This document shows, one piece after another, positions 34,777-38,962 of a DNA stretch of 53,533 nt; position 1 is the first letter of the stretch; every line of letters begins with the position of its first letter. Where the stretch lies: contig JABSQZ010000005.1 of assembly GCA_013215505.1 (NCBI GenBank), positions 62,242-115,774 of the forward strand, written 5' to 3'. The position numbers and the translations under genes were made by a program. This DNA comes from Oceanospirillaceae bacterium. Lineage in GTDB: Bacteria; Pseudomonadota; Gammaproteobacteria; Pseudomonadales; Balneatricaceae. Under the pieces are notes generated by a model. It worked only from the letters and a program-made list of their open reading frames with translations. It was not told the DNA's origin and searched no databases.

Positions 34777-34805
34777 TTGCAAATCATTCTCATTAGCGAT
34801 ACTAT
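34777..34805 (+). promoter_or_regulatory. Sigma-70 promoter with a Fur-box-like spacer (locus A)
   Basis: TTGCAA (34777-34782) and TACTAT (34800-34805) are separated by exactly 17 bases. The spacer region 34779-34797 reads on the minus strand GCTAATGAGAATGATTTGC, which matches 14 of 19 positions of the Fur consensus. A bound repressor would block this promoter. Locus B has the same layout at the same distances. Confidence 0.7.
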
Positions 34806-34810
34806 TATCT

Positions 34811-34947
34811 GGCTCGCAAGATAACTCGATAGCTCATATCAAGTTAACTTCACTTTTCCAGATTGATTAAGTATCTATTTAGTCAATAGGGAAGCATACA
34901 CGGTTCTTGTCATTTATAGGCAACCCAGATGGGTTGCCTTTTTTTTT
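34811..34947 (+). ncRNA. Putative Fur-regulated small RNA, copy A
   Basis: The predicted transcript is about 137 nt, from the end of the promoter to the T-run of the terminator. Order: the conserved 5' block GGCTCGCAAGATAAC (34811-34825); TTAACTTCACT (34844-34854); a 9-bp stem-loop ATTGATTAA/TTAGTCAAT (34862-34887); the block GGTTCTTGTCATTT (34902-34915), probably single-stranded; and a GC-rich terminator. Copy B at 37591 has the same parts in the same order. No open frame covers it. The layout is that of an iron-sparing antisense RNA such as PrrF or RyhB. The identification is inferred; no target is known. Confidence 0.7.
34918..34947 (+). terminator. Rho-independent terminator of RNA copy A
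   Basis: AGGCAACCC (34918-34926) and GGGTTGCCT (34931-34939) form a perfect 9-bp stem with loop AGAT, followed by a run of T to 34947. No protein gene on the plus strand precedes it (the upstream gene runs the other way), so it must end an untranslated transcript. Confidence 0.95.
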
Positions 34948-35173
34948 AGGTTTTCTTTTCAGGCACTCAACAGATCTAGTGTGAACCTTGCTAGCCTTAT
35001 TTGGCAAGTTGCAAGCAACTGGCTATTGGGTTTTTCGATCCGCAGTTTTTTGATTTTTTTGCAGAGGGTTGTGAATAGCTAGGTTGATTCGTGCATTGTC
35101 GGTAGTTTTTACTTTGATATTAATTTCTTTTGCTAATAAGCTGAGCGCTCTGCGATTTATTAAGGAGTGAGGC

Positions 35174-35953
35174 TTGAGTATATTAAAGTTGGCCGATGAC
35201 TATCAATTGCACTACCAGCTCATTGAGGGCGACCCGGATAAACCTTATCTGGTGTTTCTCCATGAAGGGCTTGGCTGCACGGCTATGTGGAAGAATTTCC
35301 CGCAGCGGTTATGCAGTTTAACTGCTTGTCCTGGCCTGGTGTACGATCGCTTGGGTTATGGGCAGTCTTCAACGCTGCGCAAGGAGCGCACTGTTCACTA
35401 TATGCATGAATACGCATTACAAGAGTTGCCGCAAATATTGGCTGTGCTGCTAGGAGAGCGCAGCTACATATTAGTTGGACACTCGGACGGTGCGAGCATT
35501 AGTTTGATTTTTGCTGCGCAGCAGCCTCCAATGTTAAAAGGTCTGATTAGCGAAGCGGCGCATGTCTTTGTTGAGCCCGAAACAATTACCGGAATTAAAG
35601 CGGCAGATGCGGCTTACGATGCCGGGAAATTGAGTGCACTGGAAAAATTTCACGGTGATAAAACAGCTGCTATTTTTAAAGCCTGGTCGCAAACCTGGCT
35701 AAAACCGGCGTTTGCAAGTTGGAATATTGAATATTTGCTGCCCAGTATCCAAGTGCCGTTATTGGCGATACAAGGGGTAGATGATCAATATGGATCGCAG
35801 CTCCAAGTCGCCTCTATCGTTGAGAAAACTCTGGGTCCCAGCTTTGCACTGATGATTGAGGATTGCGGCCACAGTCCGCACGCCGAAGCCCAAGAGCGGG
35901 TACTGGCGGAGATGGTTGATTTTATTAGTACTATTACTCTCGCTCAGAAGTGA
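35174..35953 (+). CDS. Alpha/beta hydrolase
   Basis: A 259-residue alpha/beta hydrolase. The oxyanion region is LVFLHEGLGCTAMW, the nucleophile elbow VGHSDGAS holds the Ser, the acid is in IQGVDDQYG, and the His is in DCGHSPH. The fold matches 2-hydroxymuconate-semialdehyde-hydrolase-like and haloperoxidase-like esterases, but the substrate is unknown. It starts at TTG 35174 after AAGGAG. It begins the three-gene run that lies between the two small-RNA loci. Confidence 0.88.
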   Translation: MSILKLADDYQLHYQLIEGDPDKPYLVFLHEGLGCTAMWKNFPQRLCSLTACPGLVYDRLGYGQSSTLRKERTVHYMHEYALQELPQILAVLLGERSYILVGHSDGASISLIFAAQQPPMLKGLISEAAHVFVEPETITGIKAADAAYDAGKLSALEKFHGDKTAAIFKAWSQTWLKPAFASWNIEYLLPSIQVPLLAIQGVDDQYGSQLQVASIVEKTLGPSFALMIEDCGHSPHAEAQERVLAEMVDFISTITLAQK

Positions 35954-36020
35954 GATTAAAGGTCAGCGCAGCGAGTCTCTGAATTCTGCTGTTCTGGCAT
36001 AGAAAATACAGGGAAATACC

Positions 36021-36614
36021 ATGCAAAAACTAGACAGTCAATTAGCATTTATTTTTGAAATTGATCGGCTCAAGGCTATTTATCGCCGCACTATGGTCAA
36101 GAGTGACAACAACCGCCAGGAGAACAGTGCCGAGCACAGTTGGCACATTGCTCTGACGGCGCAAGTATTACAGGAATATGCTGAAGATGAAGTAGATATC
36201 AACAAAGTGGTCAGCATGTTACTGATTCATGACATTGTAGAAATCGATGCCGGAGACTTGTTTGCCTTCGATGACCCGCAGCTATTTGCCGCCCAAGAGC
36301 AGAAAGAAATACAAGCGGCAGAACGTATATTTGGGTTGCTGCCACAGCCGCAATCGCAACAGTTTCTGCAGTTGTGGTTAGAGTTTGAGAGCGCGGAAAC
36401 TACAGATGCACGCTTCGCCAAGGCCATGGATAGAATTCTACCCCTAGTGCAAAACATGGCCAACCAAGGTGGCAGTTGGGCGATCAATAAAGTGACCAGA
36501 CAGCAAGTATTGCAGCGTAATATTTACCTGCAGGGGCTGGCACCTAAGCTCTGGGAGTATGTAAACCAACAGCTAGACCAGGCCTGCGAAAAAGGCTGGC
36601 TAATTGATAACTAA
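36021..36614 (+). CDS. HD-domain phosphohydrolase, HDDC2/YfbR-like
   Basis: A 197-residue HD-domain protein. The metal-binding set is His 39 in SAEHSWH, His 70-Asp 71 in LLIHDIVEIDAGD, and a later Asp in AKAMDRILP. The pattern NSAEHSW...HD.VE.DAGD is that of HDDC2/YfbR-type 5'-deoxynucleotidases, which act on nucleoside monophosphates. It lies 67 bases after the hydrolase and 98 before the next one, so an operon is plausible. Confidence 0.88.
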   Translation: MQKLDSQLAFIFEIDRLKAIYRRTMVKSDNNRQENSAEHSWHIALTAQVLQEYAEDEVDINKVVSMLLIHDIVEIDAGDLFAFDDPQLFAAQEQKEIQAAERIFGLLPQPQSQQFLQLWLEFESAETTDARFAKAMDRILPLVQNMANQGGSWAINKVTRQQVLQRNIYLQGLAPKLWEYVNQQLDQACEKGWLIDN

Positions 36615-36712
36615 GTGGCGAAGGGCAGCCGTTTAATCAACTCTGTGAATCCACAAATTGCCATTGCCCTAAGTCATTCAGGCTGATGTTTTACCCTTAA
36701 GAGGTGTACAAG

Positions 36713-37546
36713 TTGCAGATTGAGAAGTACACAGATAACCGAGCTAGAAAAGTATTCTATTTTCACGGAGTGCCGGGAAGCCCCGCTGAAGTGGCGATGT
36801 TTGATCAAGCGGTGAGCGCACAGTCGCGATGCATTATCAGTTTTAAACGCTTTTCTATAGATCCAGCGATCAGCTCAGAGCGCTATTATCAGCTGCTGGC
36901 GGATCAAGTACTTTCTATCAGTAAAGGACAGAAAATCGATTTGATCGGTTTTTCCATAGGCTGTCATGTCGCGATAGAAGTTGCTCTGCTATTGAAACAA
37001 CAGCTGGCTAGTTTGCATTTAATTTCTGCGGCCGCGCCTTTAGAGGGTGGAAATTTTTTGCCGGGTATGGCCGGTGCCGCTGTGTTTAAACTGGCGCAAA
37101 AGGCTCCCGTGCTATTTACTGTGCTGAGTTACTGGCAGCGATTGCTGGCGAGATTTGTCCCTAAGTTGTTATGCAAAATGTTGTTTGCCAGTGCCCGCGG
37201 CCAAGACCGAATATTGGCGGAAAGCGCAGAGTTCCAAAAATTGTTGCTGCCTATCCTGGCTGAGAGCTTTAGCGCGGATATCAGCGGCTATATCCGTGAT
37301 GTTAAAGCCTATGTAGCACCTTGGAGAGAGCAGCTGGGGAAACTGCAAGTGAATACTTACCTCTATCATGGGCAGTCTGATAATTGGTCTCCACTGGCCA
37401 TGGCCCATTATTTACGGGATGCAATAACCGCTGAATGTCATTTGCAGGAATACCCTGGACTGTCTCACTACTCTTGTTTGCAGGCGGCAATTAAAGATAT
37501 TTTTCAGCAGTTGGAGCGGGATGAAATGCACAGCGCAAAACAATAA
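36713..37546 (+). CDS. Alpha/beta hydrolase, second copy type
   Basis: About 277 residues. The motifs are YFHGVPGSPAEV, nucleophile elbow GFSIGC (the residue after Gly-Ile is Gly, then Cys), acid in HGQSDNWSP and His in GLSHYSC. It is only distantly like the hydrolase at 35174. The frame runs from GTG 36704, but that codon overlaps the AGAGG ribosome site, so the TTG at 36713 is the likelier start. It ends 10 bases before the -35 box of the second RNA locus. The substrate is unknown. Confidence 0.82.
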   Translation: MQIEKYTDNRARKVFYFHGVPGSPAEVAMFDQAVSAQSRCIISFKRFSIDPAISSERYYQLLADQVLSISKGQKIDLIGFSIGCHVAIEVALLLKQQLASLHLISAAAPLEGGNFLPGMAGAAVFKLAQKAPVLFTVLSYWQRLLARFVPKLLCKMLFASARGQDRILAESAEFQKLLLPILAESFSADISGYIRDVKAYVAPWREQLGKLQVNTYLYHGQSDNWSPLAMAHYLRDAITAECHLQEYPGLSHYSCLQAAIKDIFQQLERDEMHSAKQ

Positions 37547-37556
37547 CAGAGCGTTA

Positions 37557-37585
37557 TTGCAATTAGTTCTCATTATCGTTGCTGT
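37557..37585 (+). promoter_or_regulatory. Promoter with a Fur-box-like spacer (locus B)
   Basis: TTGCAA (37557-37562), 17 bases, then TGCTGT (37580-37585). The spacer site 37559-37577 reads on the minus strand GATAATGAGAACTAATTGC, 13 of 19 to the Fur consensus. The distances to the conserved GGCTCG block match locus A exactly (32 bases from the Fur-like site and 11 from the -10). The -10 is weaker than in copy A. Confidence 0.6.
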
Positions 37586-37590
37586 TGGCT

Positions 37591-37711
37591 GGCTCGTAAG
37601 ATAACCCAATAACTTACTTATTTGCTTAACTTCACTCTCTCCTGGGTTGTAAGTGTCACTTAGAACACAGGGGAACAGGGTTCTTGTCATTTTTAAGGGT
37701 AACCTTTTTTT
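37591..37711 (+). ncRNA. Putative Fur-regulated small RNA, copy B
   Basis: Predicted transcript about 121 nt. It shares with copy A the 5' block GGCTCGTAAGATAAC (one base different), TTAACTTCACT (37626-37636) and the identical GGTTCTTGTCATTT (37679-37692). Between them a 13-position stem, CCTGGGTTGTAAG against CTTAGAACACAGG (37641-37671), pairs at 11 positions. It replaces the unrelated stem of copy A at the same place. The 3' end is a short AAGG-GTAA-CCTT hairpin before seven T, weaker than in copy A. No reading frame fits it. Confidence 0.62.
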
Positions 37712-37824
37712 GTTAAAATTTACCCTCAATAGATCTGCCGCTAAATTAAGGTACGCATTTAATGCTTAGCTGCAATAAGCGCAAACGCTCAAGGCTGGCA
37801 GCAGCGAATAGATTACTGGGAATC

Positions 37825-37886: not shown

Positions 37887-38180
37887 ATGAAATTAGAATT
37901 AGCCGCCAGCCAATTGGCAGAATTAGGTCATGTCACCCGCTTGGGAGTTTACCGCATTTTAGTCAAAGCGGGCAGCGGCGGGCAGCCGGTGTCTTCTTTG
38001 CAAGAGCAATTGCAGGTGCCCGGGTCTACCTTGTCGCACCATATCAATAAGCTAGTGCAAGTAGGTCTTGTTAAACAAGTGCGTGAGGGCAGGGTGCTGC
38101 GCTGTTTCGCTCAGTTTGATAAGCTGGATAGACTGATAGATTTTTTACTGGAAGAATGCTGCTCGCAGCAAAGCGATTAG
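37887..38180 (+). CDS. arsR: ArsR-family transcriptional regulator
   Basis: A 97-residue ArsR/SmtB winged-helix protein (HVTRLGVYRILVKAG, recognition helix region QVPGSTLSHHINKLVQVGLV, wing VREGRVLRCF). The classic ELCVCDL metal motif of the alpha-3 helix is missing. Instead it has Cys 73 and a C-terminal Cys 91-Cys 92 pair, the kind of alternative arsenite site seen in other ArsR subclasses. It is followed by arsH and an MFS gene, and two matching operator dyads flank it, so it should be an arsenic-responsive repressor. No strong ribosome site is seen. Confidence 0.88.
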   Translation: MKLELAASQLAELGHVTRLGVYRILVKAGSGGQPVSSLQEQLQVPGSTLSHHINKLVQVGLVKQVREGRVLRCFAQFDKLDRLIDFLLEECCSQQSD

Positions 38181-38218
38181 GGCTGAGCAGAGCATCAGTC
38201 TTTTTTATTATTCAATTG

Positions 38219-38236
38219 ATTCGATAAAACTAGAAT
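38219..38236. promoter_or_regulatory. Second ArsR-type operator, before arsH
   Basis: ATTC-GATAAAACTA-GAAT, with the same 10-base spacer and nearly the same core as the operator at 37825. The shared pattern is TTC-GATAAnnCTA-GAA. It lies 28 bases before ATG 38264, so arsH can be regulated from its own promoter as well as from arsR. Confidence 0.62.
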
Positions 38237-38263
38237 TAACGAATTAAAAACAGAGAGAGTCGT

Positions 38264-38962
38264 ATGAGTATTTATCAATTACCTGAGCACAATCTTAAAA
38301 GTGTTAATGCTGAGATTGCGCTGCTACCAGCAATTAATCATGCGCCGCGAATTTTAGTCCTCTACGGCTCACTCAGAGAAGGGTCTTACAGTAAAAAATT
38401 AGCCTTAGAGAGTGCCGAAATCCTGCGCAGTTTTGGTGCCCAAGTGAAAGTTTTCGACCCCTGCGGTCTGCCGGTGTATCAAAGTACAGCTGTGGATCAT
38501 CTAAAAGTACAGCAGCTGCGCGAGTTGGCAAACTGGTCAGAGGGCATGCTCTGGAGCTCTCCGGAGCTGCATGGCAATATGAGCGCAGTATTTAAAAATC
38601 AAATCGACTGGATTCCGCTCAGTGACGGCTCTCTGCGGCCCACTCAGGGGAGAACGTTAGCATTGATGCAAGTGAATGGCGGCTCTCAATCCTTTAATGT
38701 GTTGAATAACATGCGTATTTTAGGCCGTTGGATGCGCATGTTCACTATTCCCAACCAGTCATCGATCCCCAAAGCTTATCAGCAGTTCGATGCAGCGGGG
38801 AAATTAAAAGAGTCTCCCTATAGAGATAGAGTGATAGATGTATTGGAAGAATTGTTTAGAATGACTATCTTATTGCGTGGCTCATCAGCGATGCTAACCC
38901 ATAGATATTCGGAAAACAAAAGCCAATATACCTTAGCCCGTGAAATTCAAAGTGGTTGTTAA
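38264..38962 (+). CDS. arsH: NADPH-dependent FMN reductase ArsH
   Basis: A 232-residue flavodoxin-fold protein. ArsH oxidises trivalent organoarsenicals or acts as a quinone/metal reductase. The FMN phosphate loop is [17 protein letters not shown]. The family blocks [53 protein letters not shown] and [14 protein letters not shown] are near-diagnostic (given here as separated pieces). It is preceded by its own ArsR-type operator and followed after 47 bases by an MFS transporter. Confidence 0.95.

Follow-up and report, generated by a model that had tools for sequence, protein, structure and literature searches.

Several copies of a candidate Fur-repressed small RNA with predicted pairing to the sdhC start in an Oceanospirillaceae bacterium and its relatives

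RyhB is a Fur-repressed RNA acting on iron proteins, and NrrF of Neisseria is reportedly an iron-responsive RNA that lowers the sdh genes. We compare with these and other described RNAs three loci, named A, B and C, of an Oceanospirillaceae genome (GCA_013215505.1); A and B are located in one stretch of 53,533 nucleotides of contig JABSQZ010000005.1 (hereafter the window), and C on another contig. We know of no sequence likeness between these loci and either NrrF or its counterpart BrrF of Burkholderia; both are unrelated RNAs having the same effect on sdh as is proposed here. BrrF is described (PMC7377471) as an iron-responsive RNA lowering the sdh genes which, unlike the present loci, follows hemP and has no Fur box of its own. 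The same paper places RyhB (RF00057; enterobacteria and Vibrio) among the RNAs of the kind considered here, namely Fur-repressed and directed at iron proteins. Finally, sibling PrrF RNAs are found in nearly all sequenced Pseudomonas, according to the review PMC4211561.

On the evidence of sequence and its conservation, we hold with good confidence that A, B and C are copies of one Fur-repressed, trans-acting small-RNA gene, in which a block, (C)ACGG(C/U)UCUUGUCAUU, would pair with the sdhC start. The original prediction had seen in A and B a duplicated family of iron-responsive small RNAs, and this view is supported by 2–3 copies in all seven genomes searched in the genus, a conserved Fur-like site, a common architecture and the sdhC-complementary block. 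Indeed, when the region of A was used as a blastn query against its own genome, B was recovered at an E-value of 2.5e-10 with 72% identity, in agreement with the claimed relationship, and a third copy, C, appeared next to aroA (G000:C1:470425-470594; 73% identity to A, E 1.2e-17), which corrects the duplication to three copies. As described beforehand, TTGCAA is present at 34777-34782 (A) and 37557-37562 (B), with a 17-base spacer up to the −10 position in both, and the two loci have in common the blocks GGCTCG(C/T)AAGATAAC, TTAACTTCACT and GGTTCTTGTCATTT; a recount of the minus-strand Fur-like scores returned the same values (Table 1). Absence of the shared blocks from close relatives had been put forward as the case against the family; they are present in 7/7 genus genomes, and the family stands. 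Promoters had been proposed at both loci: that of A holds, but B has a poor −10 (2/6). Note that a strict promoter scan listed no plus-strand promoter at the position of the A promoter.

The Fur-like site occupies the same place in the promoter spacer in all copies examined; it scores at least 13/19 in 15 of the 16 genus copies and 12–16/19 in the 21 copies examined from other genera (27 listed), with at least 14 in 19 of them. The support drawn from these sites is due to their fixed place in the promoter spacer across relatives and not to the score alone. A Fur site overlapping the promoter, as expected of Fur-repressed iron-sparing small RNAs, is thus present as far as the sequence goes, and control by iron and Fur appears very likely.

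The predicted RNA of copy A runs from a 5′ GGCUCG through hairpin SL1 (~34818-34850), an unpaired CUUCAC and hairpin SL2 (~34855-34894) to the pairing block and the terminator. In the predicted fold, SL1 is closed by AAG/CUU, CUUCAC and the block ACACGGUUCUUGUCAUUU remain largely free, and opening the block costs ~2 kcal/mol. Compared with shuffled sequences, the z-scores of the fold are −5.94 for A, −5.7 for C and −0.62 for B; among six copies folded in this way, five fall between −3.6 and −6.2 and B is the exception. SL2 is too divergent between copies and was therefore judged by folding each copy, which gave two hairpins of unlike sequence in the copies folded individually. For SL1, standard pairs fill 84% of the cells over 23 sequences, and three pairs are changed on both sides.

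The pairing block is the most conserved stretch of the RNA and is unchanged in 15/16 genus copies. It pairs with the sdhC start (−12 to +2) in 7/7 genus genomes, with an interrupted match of −17.1 kcal/mol. In 15/15 genomes of four further genera (g8, g9, g12 and g16), complementarity to the sdhC start extends over 9–14 contiguous bases, G-U allowed, with hybrid energies of −17.7 to −25.5 kcal/mol: UGACAAGAGCCGU forms a perfect 13-base pairing in three genomes (G027, G136 and G013), four others (G014, G082, G134 and G028) pair over 11 Watson-Crick bases, g16 pairs over 9 bases and g12 over 9–12 with G-U. When 664 genes of the window's genome served as a yardstick (a sample, and only a rough one for the blocks of other genera), the corresponding blocks reached −21.9 once (g8, g9) or never (g12). 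Gene starts in this set were assigned by a simple rule, which will have misplaced some of them. Against the same set, 4/664 genes equal or surpass sdhC in pairing around the start with the block of A, both by hybrid energy and after opening costs. The small RNA likely works through pairing with sdhC.

The second candidate, acnB, is less certain than sdhC but is probably a target as well: the pairing covers its ribosome-binding region and its GUG start, 16/664 genes (itself included) reach or better its value, which puts it about 15th–16th, and an uninterrupted match of 9 bases or more, G-U allowed, is found in 12 of the 14 other-genera genomes in which the start was found (two of the 14 being the PrrF-like genomes discussed below). 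These searches for sdhC and acnB covered 17 genomes, outside which stand G083 and G135, two carriers of the RNA; second-type aconitases (L176, L177, L222-L226) and second sdhC genes (L105, L106, L195 and L196) were left out of the counts. Conserved complementarity to the mRNA starts of iron proteins, which would be expected of an iron-sparing RNA, is thus found for sdhC, more weakly for acnB and not convincingly for bacterioferritin. For bfrA, pairing of the 5′ block covers the ribosome-binding site, with values of −15.05 (B), −11.85 (A) and −8.0 (C), the best being that of the copy read below as decayed.

Several observations weigh against this interpretation. Fur-like matches of at least 13/19 are common (28 in the window, counted over both strands so that a palindromic site may enter twice, and 417 over the 1.6 million positions sampled from 800 kb of the window's genome), such that a 14/19 site is weak taken alone. 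When the entire stretch from −150 to +80 is considered, sdhC drops to 14/664, and dinucleotide-shuffled versions of block A match the sdhC value in 214/2000 cases, the acnB value in 261/2000 and both in 28/2000; the target evidence within the window's genome alone is modest. Copy B ranks 100 (sdhC) and 160 (acnB) of 664. The block of one genus often pairs with the sdhC of another equally well, and co-evolution of block and sdhC is for this reason not demonstrated; sdhC starts were examined in genera bearing this RNA or PrrF-like RNAs. With the 3′ block of A, bacterioferritin has unremarkable ranks (60 and 84 among 664), and iron superoxide dismutase, a usual target, was rejected since its gene is absent from 7/7 genus genomes. 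Support from covariation is limited: SL1 slid by one column scores higher (0.181 vs 0.124), and RNAalifold on the genus alignment is nearly empty (−2.29 kcal/mol, 1/12 pairs compensatory).

Other routes to targets were abandoned. Long complements of the 14-base GGTTCTTGTCATTT in the window's genome (at most 2 mismatches) numbered 45, against 74 for the reversed control, which is no excess; few lie at a start among the 28/45 examined, and one is the antisense of copy C. Scoring of long duplexes was dropped, full-length duplexes being meaningless. As a separate observation, a DUF2797 gene (PF10977; L145:11765-12595, minus strand) carries immediately ahead of its start the sequence ACAAGAACC, which complements the block exactly, and ranks among the best target matches. 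Two of the second sdhC genes, L105 (G002) and L106 (G004), have ATG starts and an upstream Fur-like site of 15/19 (L106) or 12/19 at best (L105), and possibly encode alternative succinate dehydrogenases under iron control.

Concerning the distribution of the RNA, the 16 genus copies are our own count, in which one copy of G004 appears as two pieces. The nearest named relatives of the window's genome are metagenome-assembled genomes of the Osedax symbionts Rs1 and Rs2, which are apparently the same genomes as G003, G004 and G006, because the loci give identical blast values. In the family, the pattern CGGYTCTTGTCATT has 45 matches in 30/116 genomes, while the reversed control has 4. Of the 29 matches outside the genus, 21, at 15 of 23 loci, are preceded by a Fur-type promoter, which was found by script, and followed by a hairpin that resembles a terminator and has a T-run; the context was read by eye, and the hairpin was not required where a contig end intervenes. 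These copies lie in g8, g9 and g12, and the g16 copies are laid out alike, apart from a small change in the lead-in; diverged relatives of the same plan occur in four further genera of the family. The remaining 8/23 loci show no such promoter by eye and were taken as chance; G001:C64 was left out of the loci read. Two copies are present in each of 9/17 loci examined, and tandem pairs are common. At the scale of the order, a covariance-model search returned 15/390 genomes at E ≤ 0.01, of which 3 belong to the family; of 13 model matches outside the family, the 11 that were read do not contain the RNA and look like Fur-type promoters lacking the block, and since the model misses g16 genomes bearing the RNA, its negatives are no proof of absence. 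As a side observation, in the g16 tandems L020 and L021 the first Fur-type locus has CCTCACCTCAC and lacks CTCTTGTCATT, and the targets may be split between the tandem copies.

Within this set, B departs from its siblings. Its −10 matches 2/6 at best over spacers of 16–18 (4–5/6 in the other 15 genus copies), it alone has CAGGG where the other 15 have CACGG, and little of its terminator stem is left. A 3′ hairpin with a T-run had been noted at both loci; the terminator of A was confirmed, but the terminator scan reports no hairpin at B. Because these three separate defects have no parallel in the B counterpart of G006, which retains the −10, CACGG and the terminator, we read B as a small-RNA gene in decay; it is probably non-functional, the function being carried by A and C.

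From the observed copies, Fur-like sites, predicted folds and conserved complementarity, we infer the following course, from transcription to outcome and including any need for Hfq. Iron-loaded Fur would occupy the site lying between −35 and −10, blocking transcription; when iron is scarce, an RNA of ~135 nt would be made, ending at the intrinsic terminator, and would fold into two hairpins and the terminator with CUUCAC and the block largely free. The second block would then pair with the sdhC translation start (GAGCC-GUG), and probably also with the acnB ribosome-binding region and start, such that translation of the targets would be blocked and iron spared. An hfq motif search in 15% of the genome gave no match and carries little weight at this coverage.

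The closest described system remains PrrF. PrrF1/PrrF2 of Pseudomonas and the present RNA share a Fur-type promoter, duplication (2–3 sibling copies in 7/7 genus genomes here), a terminator, CACGGUU before the terminator and presumed iron sparing. In contrast, the present RNA reached the Rfam cut-off in none of the tests, has no UCAUCAGGCUAAU core and forms other hairpins; from the PrrF core UCUCCUCAUCA-GGCUAAUCACGGUUUUUGA before the terminator, only the CACGGUU(C/U)UU part is alike. An Rfam search for PrrF and RyhB had been suggested as a check: a scan of all Rfam over the window and 17 loci gave no small-RNA family match for the A/B loci and none to RyhB anywhere, and PrrF (RF00444) had no match in the window, nor in 8 loci when E-values as high as 5 were allowed. 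Its gathering cut-off (90 bits) was reached in 0/116 family genomes, with no match at all in the window's own, in a run without positive control, as none of 14 control genomes matched. RyhB further differs in that iron superoxide dismutase, one of its usual targets, is missing from the genus.

Sub-threshold RF00444 matches of 39–60 bits (maximum 59.9) were however found in G019 of g14 (three tandem places) and G011 of g6 (two). In these PrrF-like RNAs, AUCACGGUUCUU stands just before the terminator and is close to AUACACGGUUCUUGUCAUU of the present RNA, and their own sdhC start is paired over 14 (G019) and 11 (G011) bases with G-U. This likeness argues for a divergent PrrF, in which the Fur promoter, the CACGGUU(C/U)UU element and duplication would have been kept from a PrrF ancestor and the rest rewritten. 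Against this descent speak the RF00444 results, the absence of the UCAUCA-GGCUAAU core and our own covariance model R1, which gives the PrrF-like locus L094 just 16 bits (E 0.13); in addition, the ten-base likeness can be convergent, because both RNAs pair with the same sdhC start. We regard a divergent PrrF as a possibility of some substance, though a doubtful one. A related suggestion, to which we give slightly less than even chances, is that two differently built Fur-controlled RNAs of one family carry the same start-codon-directed anti-sdhC element adjoining the terminator, the PrrF-like RNA occurring in g14 and g6 and the present RNA in g1, g8, g9, g12 and g16. If so, this element would be either an ancestral module kept while the rest was replaced or a convergence on the sdhC start. 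The neighbouring genera with PrrF-like RNAs offer a natural series for studying how an RNA is replaced or rebuilt while its target pairing stays.

The location of A and B upstream of same-strand genes, an alpha/beta hydrolase (35174) and an ArsR-like regulator (37887), would also fit a Fur-controlled leader or attenuator acting in cis on the gene that follows. We find this very unlikely, given that the neighbours are unlike (C lies by aroA, and the g9 copies by CRISPR-like repeats or a group II intron), that a strong terminator follows A and that the block shows complementarity to sdhC, a gene located elsewhere. The scatter of several copies over dissimilar places, one of them apparently decayed, could likewise recall a dispersed repeat or mobile element devoid of regulatory function; this is very improbable, as promoter, Fur-like site, hairpins, block and terminator keep their order across five genera, the neighbourhoods of A and C match in relatives and the pairing block is the best conserved part. 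A small protein gene is scarcely credible: a short frame through the block is open in a few copies (TRFLSF-type ending), but the 16 genus copies have no frame of 8 codons or more in common, and 7/16 have none. The statement that no open frame covers either locus was, taken strictly, incorrect, since a minus-strand frame of 105 codons (37412-37729) spans B; no sign of its being a gene was seen.

Preferring the trans-acting small RNA, we propose an uncatalogued family of the RyhB/PrrF kind, itself a well-known kind of regulator. Our literature search found no description of a small RNA under Fur control from these bacteria. The family would likely provide the bone-worm symbionts and their free-living relatives with an iron-sparing switch missing from Rfam, and its predicted target site, the sdhC start, is clear enough for direct testing.

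Table 1. Coordinates of the features of loci A and B in the window.
Feature	Position	Strand	Remark
Promoter of A: TTGCAA, 17-base spacer, TACTAT	34777..34805	+	−10 matches 4/6; by eye and by script
Fur-like site of A, within promoter spacer	34779..34797	−	14/19 to consensus; same place in other genus copies
Predicted small RNA A, ~137 nt	34811..34947	+	Putative start site, placed from the −10
Conserved TTAACTTCACT of A	34844..34854	+	SL1 3′ arm and linker
Pairing block of A, ACACGGTTCTTGTCATTT	34898..34915	+	Complementary to sdhC start, partly to acnB ribosome-binding site
Intrinsic terminator of A	34918..34947	+	9-bp stem and T-run
Promoter position of B: TTGCAA, 17 bases, degenerate −10 TGCTGT	37557..37585	+	
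Fur-like site of B	37559..37577	−	13/19
Copy B, probably decayed	37591..37711	+	Block is ACAGGGTTCTTGTCATTT (37675-37692); terminator down to ~4 pairs

Some surroundings of the copies deserve mention. CRISPR-type repeats were seen by eye between two small-RNA copies of G014 (L022, ~1700-2250), and Rfam matches to group II intron RNA domains (L066:573-859, minus strand) adjoin two copies in G082. In the window, the HD-domain gene located between A and B (36021-36611; L009-L012) finds its closest relatives from named organisms among Osedax symbionts, Colwellia and Vibrio. Just downstream of B (37887-38962), the ArsR-type regulator is followed by an FMN-reductase gene, which we take to be ArsH-like.

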